A stretch of 64,000 bases of DNA from positions 1 through 64,000 of the forward strand of contig NZ_JACHVB010000020.1 in assembly GCF_014230085.1 (NCBI RefSeq). Direction: 5' to 3'. The notes beneath the pieces are model-generated. The model was not told the origin of the DNA and did no database searches. It saw only the letters and a list, made by a program, of their open reading frames with translations. The translations under genes and the position numbers were made by a program. Within the stretch, counting starts at the first letter, position 1. The number at the start of each line of letters is the position of its first letter. The stretch comes from Ruficoccus amylovorans (lineage in GTDB: Bacteria > Verrucomicrobiota > Verrucomicrobiia > Opitutales > Cerasicoccaceae). Below, in pieces: positions 24,758 through 29,758 of the stretch.

Positions 24758-27292
24758 CTATCGCTGCCGGTCGATTTCGGGTTCGACGGTTCCGGCGGTA
24801 AGCTGGCCAGTGGCGAACTGTAAAAGCGAGGCGCTCAGAAAAATATCGGTGCGGGCCTGATTGTAGCTTTCGCGGGCCTTGATCAAAAGCGCCTGCTGTG
24901 TCTGCACGTCGGTCACGCTGGCAAAGCCTTGCTCGAAGGAGGCCAGGGTGGCTTGCTGCGAAGCCTCGGAGGCGGCCACGAGGGCTTCGGCGGAGCGTAG
25001 CTGGCGGCGGGCGTTTTCGTAGTCGGTGTAAGCTTCCCAGACCTCGCTCACGGCGTTGTTGCGGGCGTCGGCGATGACGGCTTCGACCTCGCGCTTTTCG
25101 GCTTGCGCGGCGATTTTCAAGTGCTGGCGTCGGCCTCCGTCGAAGACCGGAAGGCTGAGAACCACGGCCCCGCCGTACTCGGCCTCGAAGGTATCGACCC
25201 AGCCGGTATTGTCGGCGTTGAAGGCGCTGTAAACAGGTCCGGCGTTGCCGCTGATGGCGAGGGTGGGGCCGTACTGCGCCTCGACCTGCTCGACGTTGGC
25301 CTCGGCGGCGCGGAGCTGGGCGACGTGGGCGCTCAGGTCGGGGCGGTTGGCCAGGGCGCTGTCCACCAGCGCATTGACGGAGGAGTCGAGGTTGTCCGGC
25401 AACGGAAGTTCGGTGATGTCCTGCACGCGCAGGGGCTGTCCGGGGTCGAGTCCGACGATTTCGCACAGGTTGACCTGGGCCTTGCGCAGGTCGGCCTGCA
25501 GGGCGGATACGTCGAAGTCGAACTGCGCGACCTGCTGCTTGGTCTGGAGCAGCTCGGCCCGGGTGGCGAAGCCCTGGTCGAGCGCCGACTGGGTCGCCTT
25601 TTCGATCAGGCGGGCGTCGGCCTGCGCGGCGGTGACGACGGCCAGCGCGGAGCGCAGGCTGATTAGCTTGTAGTAGGATTGGCAGACATCGAAAAGCAGT
25701 TGCTGGTGCAGCGCGTTGAAGGCGAAGTTTTGCGCCACCGACTGCTCGCGGGCACCTTTTTCAATGGCTTCGCGCCGTCCGAAGTCCCACAGCAGCCAGG
25801 AGACTTGAACTTCGGGGCGGACGATGGCCATGTCCGAGTAAAAGAAGCCGGCTGAGAAGATGTTCTGCGGCAGGGGGAAGGGCACGTGCTCGTAACCGGC
25901 GGCCGCGATCAGGTTCAGCTCGGGAAAGTACGCGCTCTGCGCCACGCCGACTCCGGCGGCGGCGGCGCGGGCCTGTTCCCAGGCGATACGGGTCTTCGGG
26001 TTGTTGCGCTGCGCCAGGTCCGCCAGTTCGGAGAGCGTGTACTCGTGGTCCGCCTCGTAGCTCTGCACGGTGGGGTGCGCGTACTGCTGGGGCAGACGGT
26101 ATTTCTCGGCCTCGGGGCTGCGCCAGGGGCGGCTCGGGCTCTGGGGGGCGAGTTCGGCGGTGTTCTGGCAGCCGGTGAACAACATCGCCAGCGCGCCCAC
26201 GCAGAGCAGCGGCAGGGCCTTGCCCAGCGTGCTGCCGGAGGGTTTTTCCGGCCAGAGATATTTGAATGTCATTCCCATCATGATATTTCCAAGAAGGATG
26301 CCCAGCAGGCGGTCGCGCAGGACGGTGAGGTCGGTGGAAGGGCCAAAAGCGGTGGAGATCATCATAAACTGCGCCAGTGCCATCTGCCAACCGGCATAGG
26401 ACAAGCGCGGAGAGCTGAGCGCGACCCAGGCGGCCAGCGTGCTGCCGACGCCGATGGCCAGCAGGAGGACGGCGATAGAGTTGGACAGCGGGATGATCCA
26501 GATGGCGCAAAACAGTGCGATCCCCGCCCCGACGGTAGCCCCGCCGATGCGCAGCCAGGTCTTGTGGATGATCTGCTCCGTGGTGGGGAGGGCCAGGATC
26601 AGGCAGGTCATCATCGCGGTCTGGATCTCTTGAAAGTTGAGCAGCGTGTAGATGAAGTACGTCCCCATCGCGGCGAAGGTACACTTGAGCGCATAGACGA
26701 GGTGGGCCGGGTTGCTTCGCCAGTCGGGGACGATGCCGAGCTTGGGTGGCGGAGGGCGGTGCTCGGGGGGCCAGTTGCGCTCGGGGCGAATGAGGAGCGT
26801 CGTCAGCATGACCGGGATGACGCCCGCCAGCGCAATGGGCATGAGCCACATGGTGCCCTGAACCCAGAGGTGGGGGTAGGGGTAAACATCGGGCAGGGTC
26901 AGCGCGGTGGCGAAGATGATGGTCAGGTTGCGGACGATGTCGCCCTCGGTCATGATATTGGCGAGGAAGAACGCCCCGTAAAGCACGGCGGCAAGCGCGG
27001 TCAGCCGCAGCCAGGTGTACTCGGCGGTGTACTTGAGCAGGACCAGCGCCAGCAGCACGACGGGCACGACCACGATGACGACAGCGGTAGTGATCAGAAA
27101 AGTTTGCCTGGTGGTGGGCTTGGCGAAGACGAAACTGAAGTAAATACTCAGCCAGCCGTTGGGGATGCGCAGGGCCATGATGATGACCGTGGCGAGCAGG
27201 ACGGACAGCACGATGCGGGCCGTCATCCAGTCACGCCCGGGGTAGGGACGCAGTTCCCGGGCAATCTCCTCCACTGTCAACCGCTGGGCCAT
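24758..27292 (-). CDS. FUSC-type inner-membrane exporter fused to TolC-like outer-membrane lipoprotein
   Basis: An 844-aa fusion. Residues 1-350 are a FUSC/aromatic-acid-exporter-type membrane region with two hydrophobic clusters (about 22-165 and 200-345). Residues 356-375 are a lipoprotein-like signal ending in the lipobox LFTGC with C375. Residues 385-844 form an outer-membrane efflux protein with two OEP repeats (for example ELADLAQRNNP, SWLLWDFGRR). It follows a HlyD gene with 3 bp between, in a DUF1656-HlyD-FUSC order. An inner-membrane pump joined to an outer-membrane channel is odd. An internal start near M341 (26272) could give the channel as a separate lipoprotein. Confidence 0.8.
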   Translation of the reverse strand: MAQRLTVEEIARELRPYPGRDWMTARIVLSVLLATVIIMALRIPNGWLSIYFSFVFAKPTTRQTFLITTAVVIVVVPVVLLALVLLKYTAEYTWLRLTALAAVLYGAFFLANIMTEGDIVRNLTIIFATALTLPDVYPYPHLWVQGTMWLMPIALAGVIPVMLTTLLIRPERNWPPEHRPPPPKLGIVPDWRSNPAHLVYALKCTFAAMGTYFIYTLLNFQEIQTAMMTCLILALPTTEQIIHKTWLRIGGATVGAGIALFCAIWIIPLSNSIAVLLLAIGVGSTLAAWVALSSPRLSYAGWQMALAQFMMISTAFGPSTDLTVLRDRLLGILLGNIMMGMTFKYLWPEKPSGSTLGKALPLLCVGALAMLFTGCQNTAELAPQSPSRPWRSPEAEKYRLPQQYAHPTVQSYEADHEYTLSELADLAQRNNPKTRIAWEQARAAAAGVGVAQSAYFPELNLIAAAGYEHVPFPLPQNIFSAGFFYSDMAIVRPEVQVSWLLWDFGRREAIEKGAREQSVAQNFAFNALHQQLLFDVCQSYYKLISLRSALAVVTAAQADARLIEKATQSALDQGFATRAELLQTKQQVAQFDFDVSALQADLRKAQVNLCEIVGLDPGQPLRVQDITELPLPDNLDSSVNALVDSALANRPDLSAHVAQLRAAEANVEQVEAQYGPTLAISGNAGPVYSAFNADNTGWVDTFEAEYGGAVVLSLPVFDGGRRQHLKIAAQAEKREVEAVIADARNNAVSEVWEAYTDYENARRQLRSAEALVAASEASQQATLASFEQGFASVTDVQTQQALLIKARESYNQARTDIFLSASLLQFATGQLTAGTVEPEIDRQR

Positions 27293-27295
27293 GCC

Positions 27296-28402
27296 TTATT
27301 CGATGGTCACGATGGCCGAGGCGCCGATGCGGAACGCCTCCTGCGGCTCGGGCTGGTCGATACGGATGCGGACGGGAAAACGCTGCGCCAGGCGCACCCA
27401 ATCAAGTTGGCTGCGGACAAAGGGCAGCGGTCCGAAGTCAAACGCGTCCTGTGTCTGCACGCCGTGGCCGATGCTGACGACCGTCCCGGTAAAGACCTTA
27501 TCCTGCATGGTGAGCAGGCGCACGCGGGCGGTGGCCCCGAGGCGGATTCGTTTCAGGTCGCCCTCGCGGTAGTTGGCCATGACGAACCATTCGCTGGTAT
27601 CGACAAGGGTGAAAAGCGGTTCGCCGGGCATGGTCATCATGCCGGGGGCGATGTCACAGTTGACGACCCGGCCCGGGAAGGGAGCCTTGATCTGCGTGCG
27701 CTCCAACTCCAGCTCGGCCATAGCCAGCCGGATGCGGGCTGCCTTGATTTCGGCCCGCAGCGCATCCAGCGAGGGCACGGCCAGCTCGGCAGCCAGCTCG
27801 TTACTCCGGGCCATGAGGACTCCGGCATTGGCCTGCTCCCAGGCGGTGGTGGCGGTGTCGTAGCGTTCGCGGGTGACGAAGCCCTGTTCGGCCAATGGCG
27901 TCATGCGCTCGTAGGTGGACTGCGCCAGCGTCTGTTGCGCAATGGCGGCGAGCGTGGCGGCGCGGGCCGTTTCGACCAGTTCCTCCGAGGCGCCGCGCTG
28001 GCGTTCGGCCTCGCCGAGCTGGGCTTCCAGCGCAGCGATCTGGGCGAGGGCCTCGTCCACGGCCAGTTGGTACGATGAAGGATCGATCTGCACGAGCAGT
28101 TCACCGGGGGAGACAGCCAAGCCATCGCGGGCGGGCAGTTCCACGATCCTCCCCGGCACCTGAGGCGCGACTGTGATGTAGCGGGCCTGCACGTAGGCGT
28201 CGTCGGTGCGCGGGTAGTGCTCGCTATGCTCCAGCAGGTAAAAGGCAAGTACGAGTGCTCCGACCACGATGACCGCGCTCAGCAGGCGGCCCAGCGCCTT
28301 TTGGGGCTTCGATGCTTTGGGCGCGGGTTGGTCGGAGGGTGGCGTGGTGTCGGCGGGCTCGGTCATGGCGGTTTGCGATACGGTCGGCGAAGGCGTTTTC
28401 AC
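27296..28402 (-). CDS. HlyD/EmrA-family periplasmic adaptor
   Basis: A membrane-fusion protein linking an inner-membrane pump to an outer-membrane channel. From GTG 28402, which overlaps the upstream stop as TAGTG, it has 368 aa. It has a Pro-rich cytosolic start and one membrane helix, then HYPRTDDAYVQARYITVAPQ. An N-terminal lipoyl half (VPGRIVELPARDGLAV), a helical hairpin, a second lipoyl half (TQIKAPFPGRVVNCDI) and a beta barrel complete it. ATG 28366 is an alternative start. It is the middle gene of the DUF1656-HlyD-FUSC operon, as in aaeXAB-type aromatic acid exporters. Confidence 0.9.
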   Translation of the reverse strand: MKTPSPTVSQTAMTEPADTTPPSDQPAPKASKPQKALGRLLSAVIVVGALVLAFYLLEHSEHYPRTDDAYVQARYITVAPQVPGRIVELPARDGLAVSPGELLVQIDPSSYQLAVDEALAQIAALEAQLGEAERQRGASEELVETARAATLAAIAQQTLAQSTYERMTPLAEQGFVTRERYDTATTAWEQANAGVLMARSNELAAELAVPSLDALRAEIKAARIRLAMAELELERTQIKAPFPGRVVNCDIAPGMMTMPGEPLFTLVDTSEWFVMANYREGDLKRIRLGATARVRLLTMQDKVFTGTVVSIGHGVQTQDAFDFGPLPFVRSQLDWVRLAQRFPVRIRIDQPEPQEAFRIGASAIVTIE

Positions 28403-28602
28403 TAGTCGAAAAATATCATCCAGCACAACGCGGCCCAGAGGAAGGCCAGGCAAAGGTAAACCAGCACGGGCATGACGAGTTGCTTGTGCAGGCCCAGCTT
28501 GGCGAGTACCATTTTGGTGCAGGCGGCGAGAATTATACCCGCGATGGCGGACAGCAACCAGCCCGGAAAATACGCTCCGAATATTTCGACTTCAGATGAC
28601 AC
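28402..28602 (-). CDS. DUF1656 (AaeX-like) small membrane protein
   Basis: A 66-aa protein with two membrane helices and the typical start EVEIFGAYFPGWL, with YLCLAFLWAALCW near the end. DUF1656 proteins precede HlyD/FUSC exporter genes such as aaeXAB, and this is the first gene of that operon here. The start is GTG 28602; no ATG is in frame. Its role in the exporter is not known. The TAG stop overlaps the GTG start of the adaptor by one base. Confidence 0.88.
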   Translation of the reverse strand: MSSEVEIFGAYFPGWLLSAIAGIILAACTKMVLAKLGLHKQLVMPVLVYLCLAFLWAALCWMIFFD

Positions 28603-28675: not shown

Positions 28676-29758
28676 CTAGATACCTAGAAACTGGAACGGC
28701 TGGGTGTCCTTGAATTTGGCGCTGACTTCGCCGGAGAAGATGTTTCGCTGATCGGGGCCCAGATCGAGCTTCTTGACCGTCCCGGTCTCGGGGGAGAAAT
28801 CGAGCTTGTCCAGGTCCACCCAAAAAATGCTCGGGGTCAGCGCGGACTCGAAGAAGTAGCGCATGCGCTTCTGGTCGGCGACGGTGCGCCAGCGCGTGGA
28901 GGAGATGTTCGGCTGGCCCGGCGTGGTCAGCCCGTAGGGGACGGAGACGTTGCGGATGACGCTGAAAACGCTCGCGATGGTTTCGACCTCGTCCCCGGTC
29001 TTGGGCACGGCGTTGATGTAAAAAGCCGCGCGGGTGAAACGGTCCGCCGCCCGGTTGGTCCCCGGCAGCATGACGGTGCCGCCAATCTGCTTCCAGTAGG
29101 AGTGCAGGGCAAGTTGCTCATCGAAGGTGGGCGAATTCGTCATCACCTGATACTGACTGCTGTGGTGGATTACCTGCTGGCCTTCGATGTATTCGACGAT
29201 GGCGCTGTCCCCGCTGGCGTCGGAGATGCCGAGGTGAAGCGCGGCCAGGCGGTCTTCGCCGGGCACCTTGTCGGTGACTATGATGAAGGGCTCCTTCTCA
29301 AGTACGCGGACGGCTTCCTCGACCGTGGCGAAGTTGTCGAGCACGTACTGGGCCCAGGCCGCGACAGTCAGTCCGGGCTTCTCGTCGGTGTAGGCCGGGT
29401 ACTCCGACTCCACCAGCCAGAGTACGCTTGCGCTCAGGCCGGCCTCGTTAAGTCCGTCCGTAGTCGAAATATCATACCCCGAGGCGATCACGCTGCCATA
29501 CTTCGAGGTCCATTGCAGGGAGTTGGGGCCAGCCTCGCCCGAACGCTCCATCCCGCGCGGGAACACCCACAGATTCGTTCCAACGTCGACCCTCCAGTCC
29601 ATCGAGCGGGCGGTGACGATCTGCCCCTCCGTCCCGTGGTAAACTACCCGCGTACAGGCACGGGCTACCGGGGCAAGGCTGAGAGTGGCAATGGGCAGGA
29701 GAGCAGCGCCCAGAATGGCGGTACGCGAGCGGCACAGGCGGAAGAAGGTTATAAGCAT
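28676..29758 (-). CDS. Secreted linear amide C-N hydrolase (choloylglycine hydrolase family)
   Basis: A 360-aa Ntn hydrolase. A signal peptide ends in ARA at residue 34, so signal cleavage would expose C35 as the N-terminal nucleophile (ACTRVVYHG). Family blocks include ITARSMDW-like VTARSMDWR, GLNEAGL (with Asn for the oxyanion site), a long insertion-prone middle and IRNVSVPYG near the C-terminus. Relatives hydrolyse bile-salt amides, penicillin V or acyl-homoserine lactones; the substrate here is unknown. It is divergent from the VWA gene and shares the TGAC repeat region with it. Confidence 0.88.
   Translation of the reverse strand: MLITFFRLCRSRTAILGAALLPIATLSLAPVARACTRVVYHGTEGQIVTARSMDWRVDVGTNLWVFPRGMERSGEAGPNSLQWTSKYGSVIASGYDISTTDGLNEAGLSASVLWLVESEYPAYTDEKPGLTVAAWAQYVLDNFATVEEAVRVLEKEPFIIVTDKVPGEDRLAALHLGISDASGDSAIVEYIEGQQVIHHSSQYQVMTNSPTFDEQLALHSYWKQIGGTVMLPGTNRAADRFTRAAFYINAVPKTGDEVETIASVFSVIRNVSVPYGLTTPGQPNISSTRWRTVADQKRMRYFFESALTPSIFWVDLDKLDFSPETGTVKKLDLGPDQRNIFSGEVSAKFKDTQPFQFLGI

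Follow-up and report, generated by a model that had tools for sequence, protein, structure and literature searches.

The stretch of DNA analysed here (the window) comprises the first 64,000 nucleotides of contig NZ_JACHVB010000020.1 of Ruficoccus amylovorans, whose genome (G000 below) is a draft of 64 contigs and 97.8% complete. On the minus strand at 24758-27292, the window contains a single open reading frame of 844 residues that joins an inner-membrane FUSC pump to an outer-membrane channel. In the order of the protein, the FUSC pump (residues 1-347) is followed by a lipoprotein-type signal segment ending in LFTG before Cys375 and then by a complete TolC-type channel (residues 375-844). A preliminary description of this DNA had proposed an in-frame fusion of pump and channel; the frame is indeed open throughout, and the same fusion occurs in three other genomes. 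The parts of the fused gene are as follows.

26252..27292, minus strand: FUSC pump part, residues 1-347, in two halves (Pfam FUSC_2, NCBIfam MdtO, structure model, alignment with unfused relatives)
26276..26281, minus strand: ATG-ATG codons of Met338-339, start codons common to the four fusions and also part of FUSC helix 12
26171..26221, minus strand: internal signal segment, residues 358-374 (hydropathy and charge tally, model helix, second-codon-position conservation)
26168..26170, minus strand: codon of the lipobox Cys375, predicted lipidation site and predicted first residue of the mature channel (Gly-Cys invariant in the four fusions)
24761..26170, minus strand: TolC/OprM-type channel, residues 375-844, with a linker (376-417) and then the OEP fold (Pfam OEP, PDB sequence and fold matches)

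Pfam FUSC_2 matched residues 212-336 with 34.9 bits (cut-off 25.6), and the NCBIfam model of MdtO matched residues 186-352 with 152.6 bits, far below its equivalog cut-off of 821. In the channel part, Pfam OEP (PF02321) scored 177.7 bits (cut-off 22) over two stretches, the best of which was 640-829. The two-repeat OEP channel lies within residues 420-833, and TolC-type NCBIfam models cover about 419-833; NCBIfam MdtP scored 25.2 bits on the fused protein against a cut-off of 597. By sequence, the channel part matched 14 PDB entries, OprJ, OprM and CusC among them. The fold search returned 44 PDB chains at E<=0.001, of which 37 carry descriptions as outer-membrane channels or as pumps that include such a channel, 6 are described just as Pseudomonas membrane protein (one of these, 5azs, is called OprJ in the sequence search) and 1 just as multidrug efflux. 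With two OEP repeats and the TolC fold, the channel part is an outer-membrane factor (OMF) of the OEP/TolC type. None of the 44 fold matches corresponds to FUSC, and a search by sequence for a solved FUSC structure gave no significant match. The AlphaFold2 model, with a mean predicted local distance difference test score (pLDDT) of 66.9 and values mostly between 50 and 74 in the FUSC part, places twelve helices between residues 20 and 346 with moderate to low confidence, followed by a low-confidence helix at 354-372 (pLDDT about 45), a linker and a TolC-type fold from residue 420.

Homologue searches drew 54, 384, 372 and 387 genomes, in sets that overlap. Four genomes were found to carry the fusion in one frame: that of the window, G007 from the same family, and G030 and G393 from the same order. 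The G030 fusion matches the public contig DGMY01000042.1 (Opitutia bacterium UBA4506) and that of G393 matches CAJXLM010000009.1 (uncultured Opitutae). The preliminary description had raised the question of whether homologues carry the same fusion or a split; the three other Opitutia fusions are 61% (G007), 60% (G030) and 46% (G393) identical to that of the window. Employing our own FUSC and OEP profiles on frames of at least 250 residues in 144 fetched loci, we detected a FUSC frame in 93 loci. Both domains were present in one frame in 17 of the 144 loci, all from the four fusion genomes or their public duplicates. In the remaining FUSC loci, from Verrucomicrobiota and Proteobacteria, the channel gene was separate where it lay within the fetched stretch. 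Genome contigs scanned with the single fused protein as query gave no match; scanned with the alignment, they gave eight loci, 2 fused and 6 unfused.

Unfused FUSC relatives contain a domain of about 130 residues between the two halves (absent in the locus L058) and a C-terminal domain, both of which we take to be cytosolic; the four fusions are without either. Trees were built from 22 rows for the channel part and from 21 rows for the pump part; in these, the four fusions fall on one side of a branch with support of 100/99 and 100/100, respectively, and their inner order is the same in both trees: G007 with G030, then G000, then G393. Several other forks in these trees are open, and MdtP of Escherichia coli forms a long branch. 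The family labels group G000 with G007 and place G030 and G393 in a different family, so that the gene trees of the fusion disagree with the labels. From the window's genus, the three further genomes matched only weakly. The fusion likely has one origin and a patchy spread, with horizontal transfer between Opitutia families.

The lipobox LFTGC noted in the preliminary description is present in the window protein, and its Gly and Cys align in all four fusions, whose motifs are LFTGC, MMTGC, IATGC and FLPGC, with Gln, Glu, Thr and Gln as the residue at +2 after the Cys. In the four-fusion alignment, both columns of Gly374-Cys375 are invariant, as are 108 of 327 columns in the FUSC part, 3 of 26 in the junction (348-373), 6 of 42 in the linker and 133 of 413 in the OEP part; the junction is thus the least conserved stretch around an invariant Gly-Cys. 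The window protein has seven cysteines, and C230 and C375 alone are invariant. In the signal segment (358-374), a short basic loop precedes the hydrophobic stretch, which ends in Leu-Phe-Thr-Gly. All four fusions have the makings of a bacterial lipoprotein signal: basic residues in a loop, then a hydrophobic segment free of charge, then Gly-Cys. Over 30 codons of the junction compared in three genome pairs, identity was 0.67-0.77 at the second codon position, 0.50-0.57 at the first and 0.33-0.53 at the third. Because conservation in the junction is highest at the second position, the junction appears to be translated and kept hydrophobic.

Upstream of the fused gene on the same strand lie two genes of the same putative operon.

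28402..28602, minus strand: YtcA-family small membrane protein of 66 residues, first gene of the operon (Pfam Ytca PF17090, 49.8 bits, cut-off 28.8)
27296..28366, minus strand: MdtN/EmrA-like periplasmic adaptor of the HlyD type (NCBIfam MdtN 317.9 bits, below the cut-off of 376; HlyD_D23 and HlyD_3 above cut-off)

The adaptor is the HlyD gene that had been noticed next to the fusion; comparison with relatives suggests that it probably starts at ATG 28366 rather than at 28453, where its longest frame begins. The gene order is therefore ytcA, the mdtN-like adaptor gene and the fused mdtO::mdtP, and gene spacing suggests transcription as one unit. Each of the four fusion genomes, like E. coli, has a YtcA-like open reading frame upstream of the adaptor gene. 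In its parts (YtcA, MdtN-like adaptor, FUSC pump and OMF), the operon has the layout of an MdtNOP-type system, except that pump and channel, separate genes in that type, form one frame in four genomes. The equivalog cut-offs of MdtN, MdtO and MdtP were all missed, and for this reason we call the system MdtNOP-like rather than MdtNOP.

E. coli K-12 has the same four parts in the same order (YtcA-MdtN-MdtO-MdtP; b4622, b4082-b4080). The second half of the window FUSC is 34% identical to its counterpart there and the adaptor 41%, whereas the channel and MdtP are no more than distant relatives (23% identity over a part). mdtO and mdtP of E. coli are separate genes with a 4-base overlap, MdtO has 683 residues as compared with 347 in the FUSC part of the window, and MdtP carries its own lipobox. 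MdtP is named as N-acylated in a passage of PMC13082787. A search of plasmids with the protein as query gave 79 records, of which five, all Ensifer, covered at least 80% of the query. In all 7 of the 79 loci that were fetched (one of them Ensifer), the match consisted of two neighbouring, unfused genes. These proteobacterial FUSC-TolC pairs, from Ensifer, Caballeronia, Burkholderia, Cupriavidus, Proteus, Roseibium and Paraburkholderia, share with the window the order adaptor-FUSC-channel on one strand but differ in that pump and channel are not fused, their longest frames overlap (the annotated starts at the Roseibium locus do not) and the FUSC proteins have 619-692 residues. Judging from these lengths and from the position of the second half, the plasmid FUSC proteins would carry extra cytosolic parts.

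The fused gene is a conserved merger of the pump and channel genes of an MdtNOP-like operon, and taken together these sequence comparisons make it likely that it encodes a polyprotein that is cut at an internal lipobox. The ribosome would make one chain, of which the pump helices would enter the inner membrane with their C-terminal end inside. If the helices are even in number and the C-terminal end lies inside, the segment that follows would run outward through the membrane and expose the lipobox to Lgt and LspA. The basic loop and the hydrophobic segment would thus act as an internal signal peptide, sending the rest of the chain through Sec; Lgt would lipidate Cys375, and LspA would cut between Gly374 and Cys375. 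The FUSC pump would remain in the inner membrane, the channel would reach the outer membrane as a trimeric lipoprotein, and the MdtN-like adaptor would bridge the two. The gain would be that pump and channel are made in equal amounts. Genes for LspA (125.3 bits) and Lgt (212.4 bits) are present in the genome, and among five OMF N-terminal ends of the same genome, read by eye, four have a lipobox-like motif and one an ordinary signal peptide. The fbcH polyprotein of Bradyrhizobium, composed of cytochrome b and cytochrome c1, likewise combines a protein of the inner membrane with an exported one and is cleaved at a signal peptide within the chain. It differs in that both products stay at the inner membrane, the enzyme is signal peptidase I and the protein is not an efflux pump.

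A parallel is found in Bacteroidota. Employing the channel part of a Flavobacterium fusion as query, we searched plasmids for fusions of RND pumps with channels. Among the 40 best rows of 72 matching records, the match lay inside a gene named CusA/CzcA pump in 33; 5 were unannotated and 2 were named TolC. With a second Bacteroidota TolC query, 21 of 30 records were annotated TolC, 7 CusA/CzcA and 2 were unannotated; with a third, all 15 were separate channel genes. The pump-channel fusion is not universal in Bacteroidota, and a Haliscomenobacter plasmid has both the fused and the separate kind. Three of the Bacteroidota proteins were scanned, and each contained ACR_tran and OEP. We read 15 junctions (L128-L142), five of them from full-length proteins of 1446-1464 residues; they are mutually related and were chosen for diversity among annotated fusions, with signals identified by prediction. 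Each of the 15 continues from the last pump helix into a loop, basic in most cases, and a hydrophobic core resembling a signal peptide. Within 18 residues starting at the last two of the core, AQ was present in 14 of 15 junctions (mean 4.6 and maximum 11 in 5000 shuffles) and [AGS]Q in 15 of 15 (mean 8.7, maximum 14, same number of shuffles). Substrates of Bacteroidetes signal peptidase I mostly expose an N-terminal Gln, according to a passage on this "Q-rule" in PMC5837995. Ala or Ser followed by Gln, with the predicted cut between them, occurs after the internal signal segment in all 15 junctions, as expected under that rule.

Like the window fusion, the Bacteroidota CusA/CzcA-TolC proteins combine an inner-membrane pump and an outer-membrane channel in one frame. 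They differ in the pump, which is RND rather than FUSC (no RND pump part, ACR_tran, was found in the window protein), and in the junction, which is of the signal peptidase I type rather than a lipobox. Since both pump family and enzyme differ between Opitutia and Bacteroidota, the design seems to have arisen twice, and we infer independent origins from unrelated pump families. For the wider proposition that efflux pumps spanning the envelope arise, in two or more unrelated lineages, from polyproteins cut by a signal peptidase (LspA for the FUSC-channel chains of Opitutia, signal peptidase I for the RND-channel chains of Bacteroidota), the balance of the sequence comparisons tips slightly in favor.

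The preliminary description had offered three outcomes for the chain: an internal start near 26272, processing at the lipobox or a one-chain tripartite exporter. Processing is the one best supported, by the invariant Gly-Cys, the second-position conservation in the junction, the lipobox-bearing MdtP of E. coli, the Lgt and LspA genes and the Bacteroidota parallel. Initiation at the ATG-ATG pair 338-339 or at ATG 341, which would yield a separate lipoprotein channel and leave the long frame partly or wholly incidental, is in our view unlikely. These ATGs do precede the basic loop, the hydrophobic segment and the lipobox, and E. coli and all seven plasmid loci, where pump and channel are separate genes whose longest frames overlap, would fit such an arrangement. 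However, Met341, the start near 26272, is not conserved among the four fusions. The start codons common to all four are the ATG-ATG pair and GTG 365. Met338-339 are also kept in unfused FUSC proteins as part of helix 12, and GTG 365 lies just 10-12 residues before the Cys, with no basic residue for a signal peptide. The ribosome-binding energy before codon 338 is stronger than that at the main start in G000 (-3.3 versus 0.1 kcal/mol) and G030 (-4.2 versus -3.0) but weaker in G007 (-2.4 versus -2.8) and G393 (-1.7 versus -6.6), and the upstream letters differ among the four; these energies do not separate internal from main starts. Agreement of synonymous codons, based on few codons, is similar in the junction (0.46-0.60) and the FUSC part (0.44-0.56). 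Moreover, as the frame is open in all four lineages, the long chain must be made too, which counts against internal initiation.

The continuity of the frame in four genomes would suit a true one-chain exporter, in which the segment after helix 12 is an uncut extra helix and the polypeptide spans both membranes. This we consider very unlikely, as a plain helix would not require an invariant Gly-Cys, the 42 linker residues between C375 and the OEP fold would make the span from inner to outer membrane hard to achieve, and the Bacteroidota fusions have a signal-peptidase-like motif at the same place. It is hardly conceivable that the frame results from a sequencing, assembly or frameshift artefact or belongs to a decaying gene. 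The genome is a draft in many contigs, but the same fusion, free of stops, is present in three other genomes, two of them under public accessions, which rules out sequencing error as its cause, and the codon positions across the junction show the pattern of a selected protein. The preliminary description would have been overturned by a broken frame on resequencing or by relatives consistently fused without a lipobox; the three other genomes keep the frame, and Gly-Cys is present in each of the four fusions.

Several observations weigh against cutting at the lipobox. Only four fusion sequences are available, and in G000 and G030 the internal ATG pair has a ribosome-binding energy no weaker than that of the main start. 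The inside location of the FUSC C-terminal end would depend on basic loops and on twelve helices that the model places with moderate to low confidence. By plain hydropathy, the FUSC part has fewer than twelve segments, 10 in G000 and G393 and 9 in G007 and G030, and the junction helix of the model is of low confidence. The lipobox of G393, FLPGC, has Pro at -2, and the usual lipobox pattern does not accommodate Pro just before Gly-Cys. The outer-membrane lipoprotein route is incomplete in the draft: LolA gave no match with PF03548 in the 97.8%-complete genome and none with PF19574, a search in which the controls gave none either. A LolC/E-like protein scored 243.7 bits, below cut-off, and a diverged protein may serve for the LolA carrier step. 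In Bacteroidota, separate RND and TolC genes are common; several pumps of B. thetaiotaomicron have TolC as a separate gene, as listed in PMC10434189.

Next to the operon lies a further gene that is not part of the pump.

28676..29758, minus strand: linear amide C-N hydrolase (PF02275), neighbouring gene (CBAH, 167.9 bits)

Hydrolases 61% identical to its product are encoded near unfused pump genes in two Oceanisphaera loci (L073 and L074), and at the Roseibium locus (L123) a gene for a distant linear amide hydrolase follows the channel gene. In G007, G030 and G393, no such gene was seen within the 12 kb fetched around the fusion. The hydrolase is a possible functional partner of the pump, whose substrate may be an N-acyl amide or its product, as hinted solely by this neighbouring gene.

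Other long OEP frames, inspected by eye, proved not to be fusions. Those of the relatives G044 (967 residues), G029 (889) and G022 (781) are separate channels with open frame before the likely start. In the window's own genome, C34 (608) is a 605-residue channel with a long tail and no pump, and C13 (856) is an 819-residue protein with an extra N-terminal part and no pump. This last channel (L115:2397-4856, minus strand) begins with a signal peptide, and its extra part of about 370 residues resembles, by eye, a periplasmic binding protein; Pfam names OEP only, and an RND gene lies upstream. Papers on an internal lipobox, on a natural fusion of pump and channel, on the processing of fbcH or on a link between hydrolase and pump were not found in the openly licensed PMC literature. 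PMC8277102 lists MdtNOP, with no such fusion in the part of its text that was available.

Should the chain be cut, a single gene would provide each of two membranes with a protein of its own by way of an internal lipoprotein signal. The chain would then be an unusual substrate of Lgt and LspA and would raise the question of whether both enzymes work behind a whole polytopic pump. If it is uncut, a single polypeptide across both membranes would be still more surprising. The Bacteroidota plasmid records L128-L142 name the whole chain CusA/CzcA pump (RND transporter), and with such names the channel part of these chains may be overlooked. The Bacteroidota parallel suggests a recurring solution, and cutting, if true in both lineages, would be a general way to make the inner and outer parts of an efflux pump equally and side by side.
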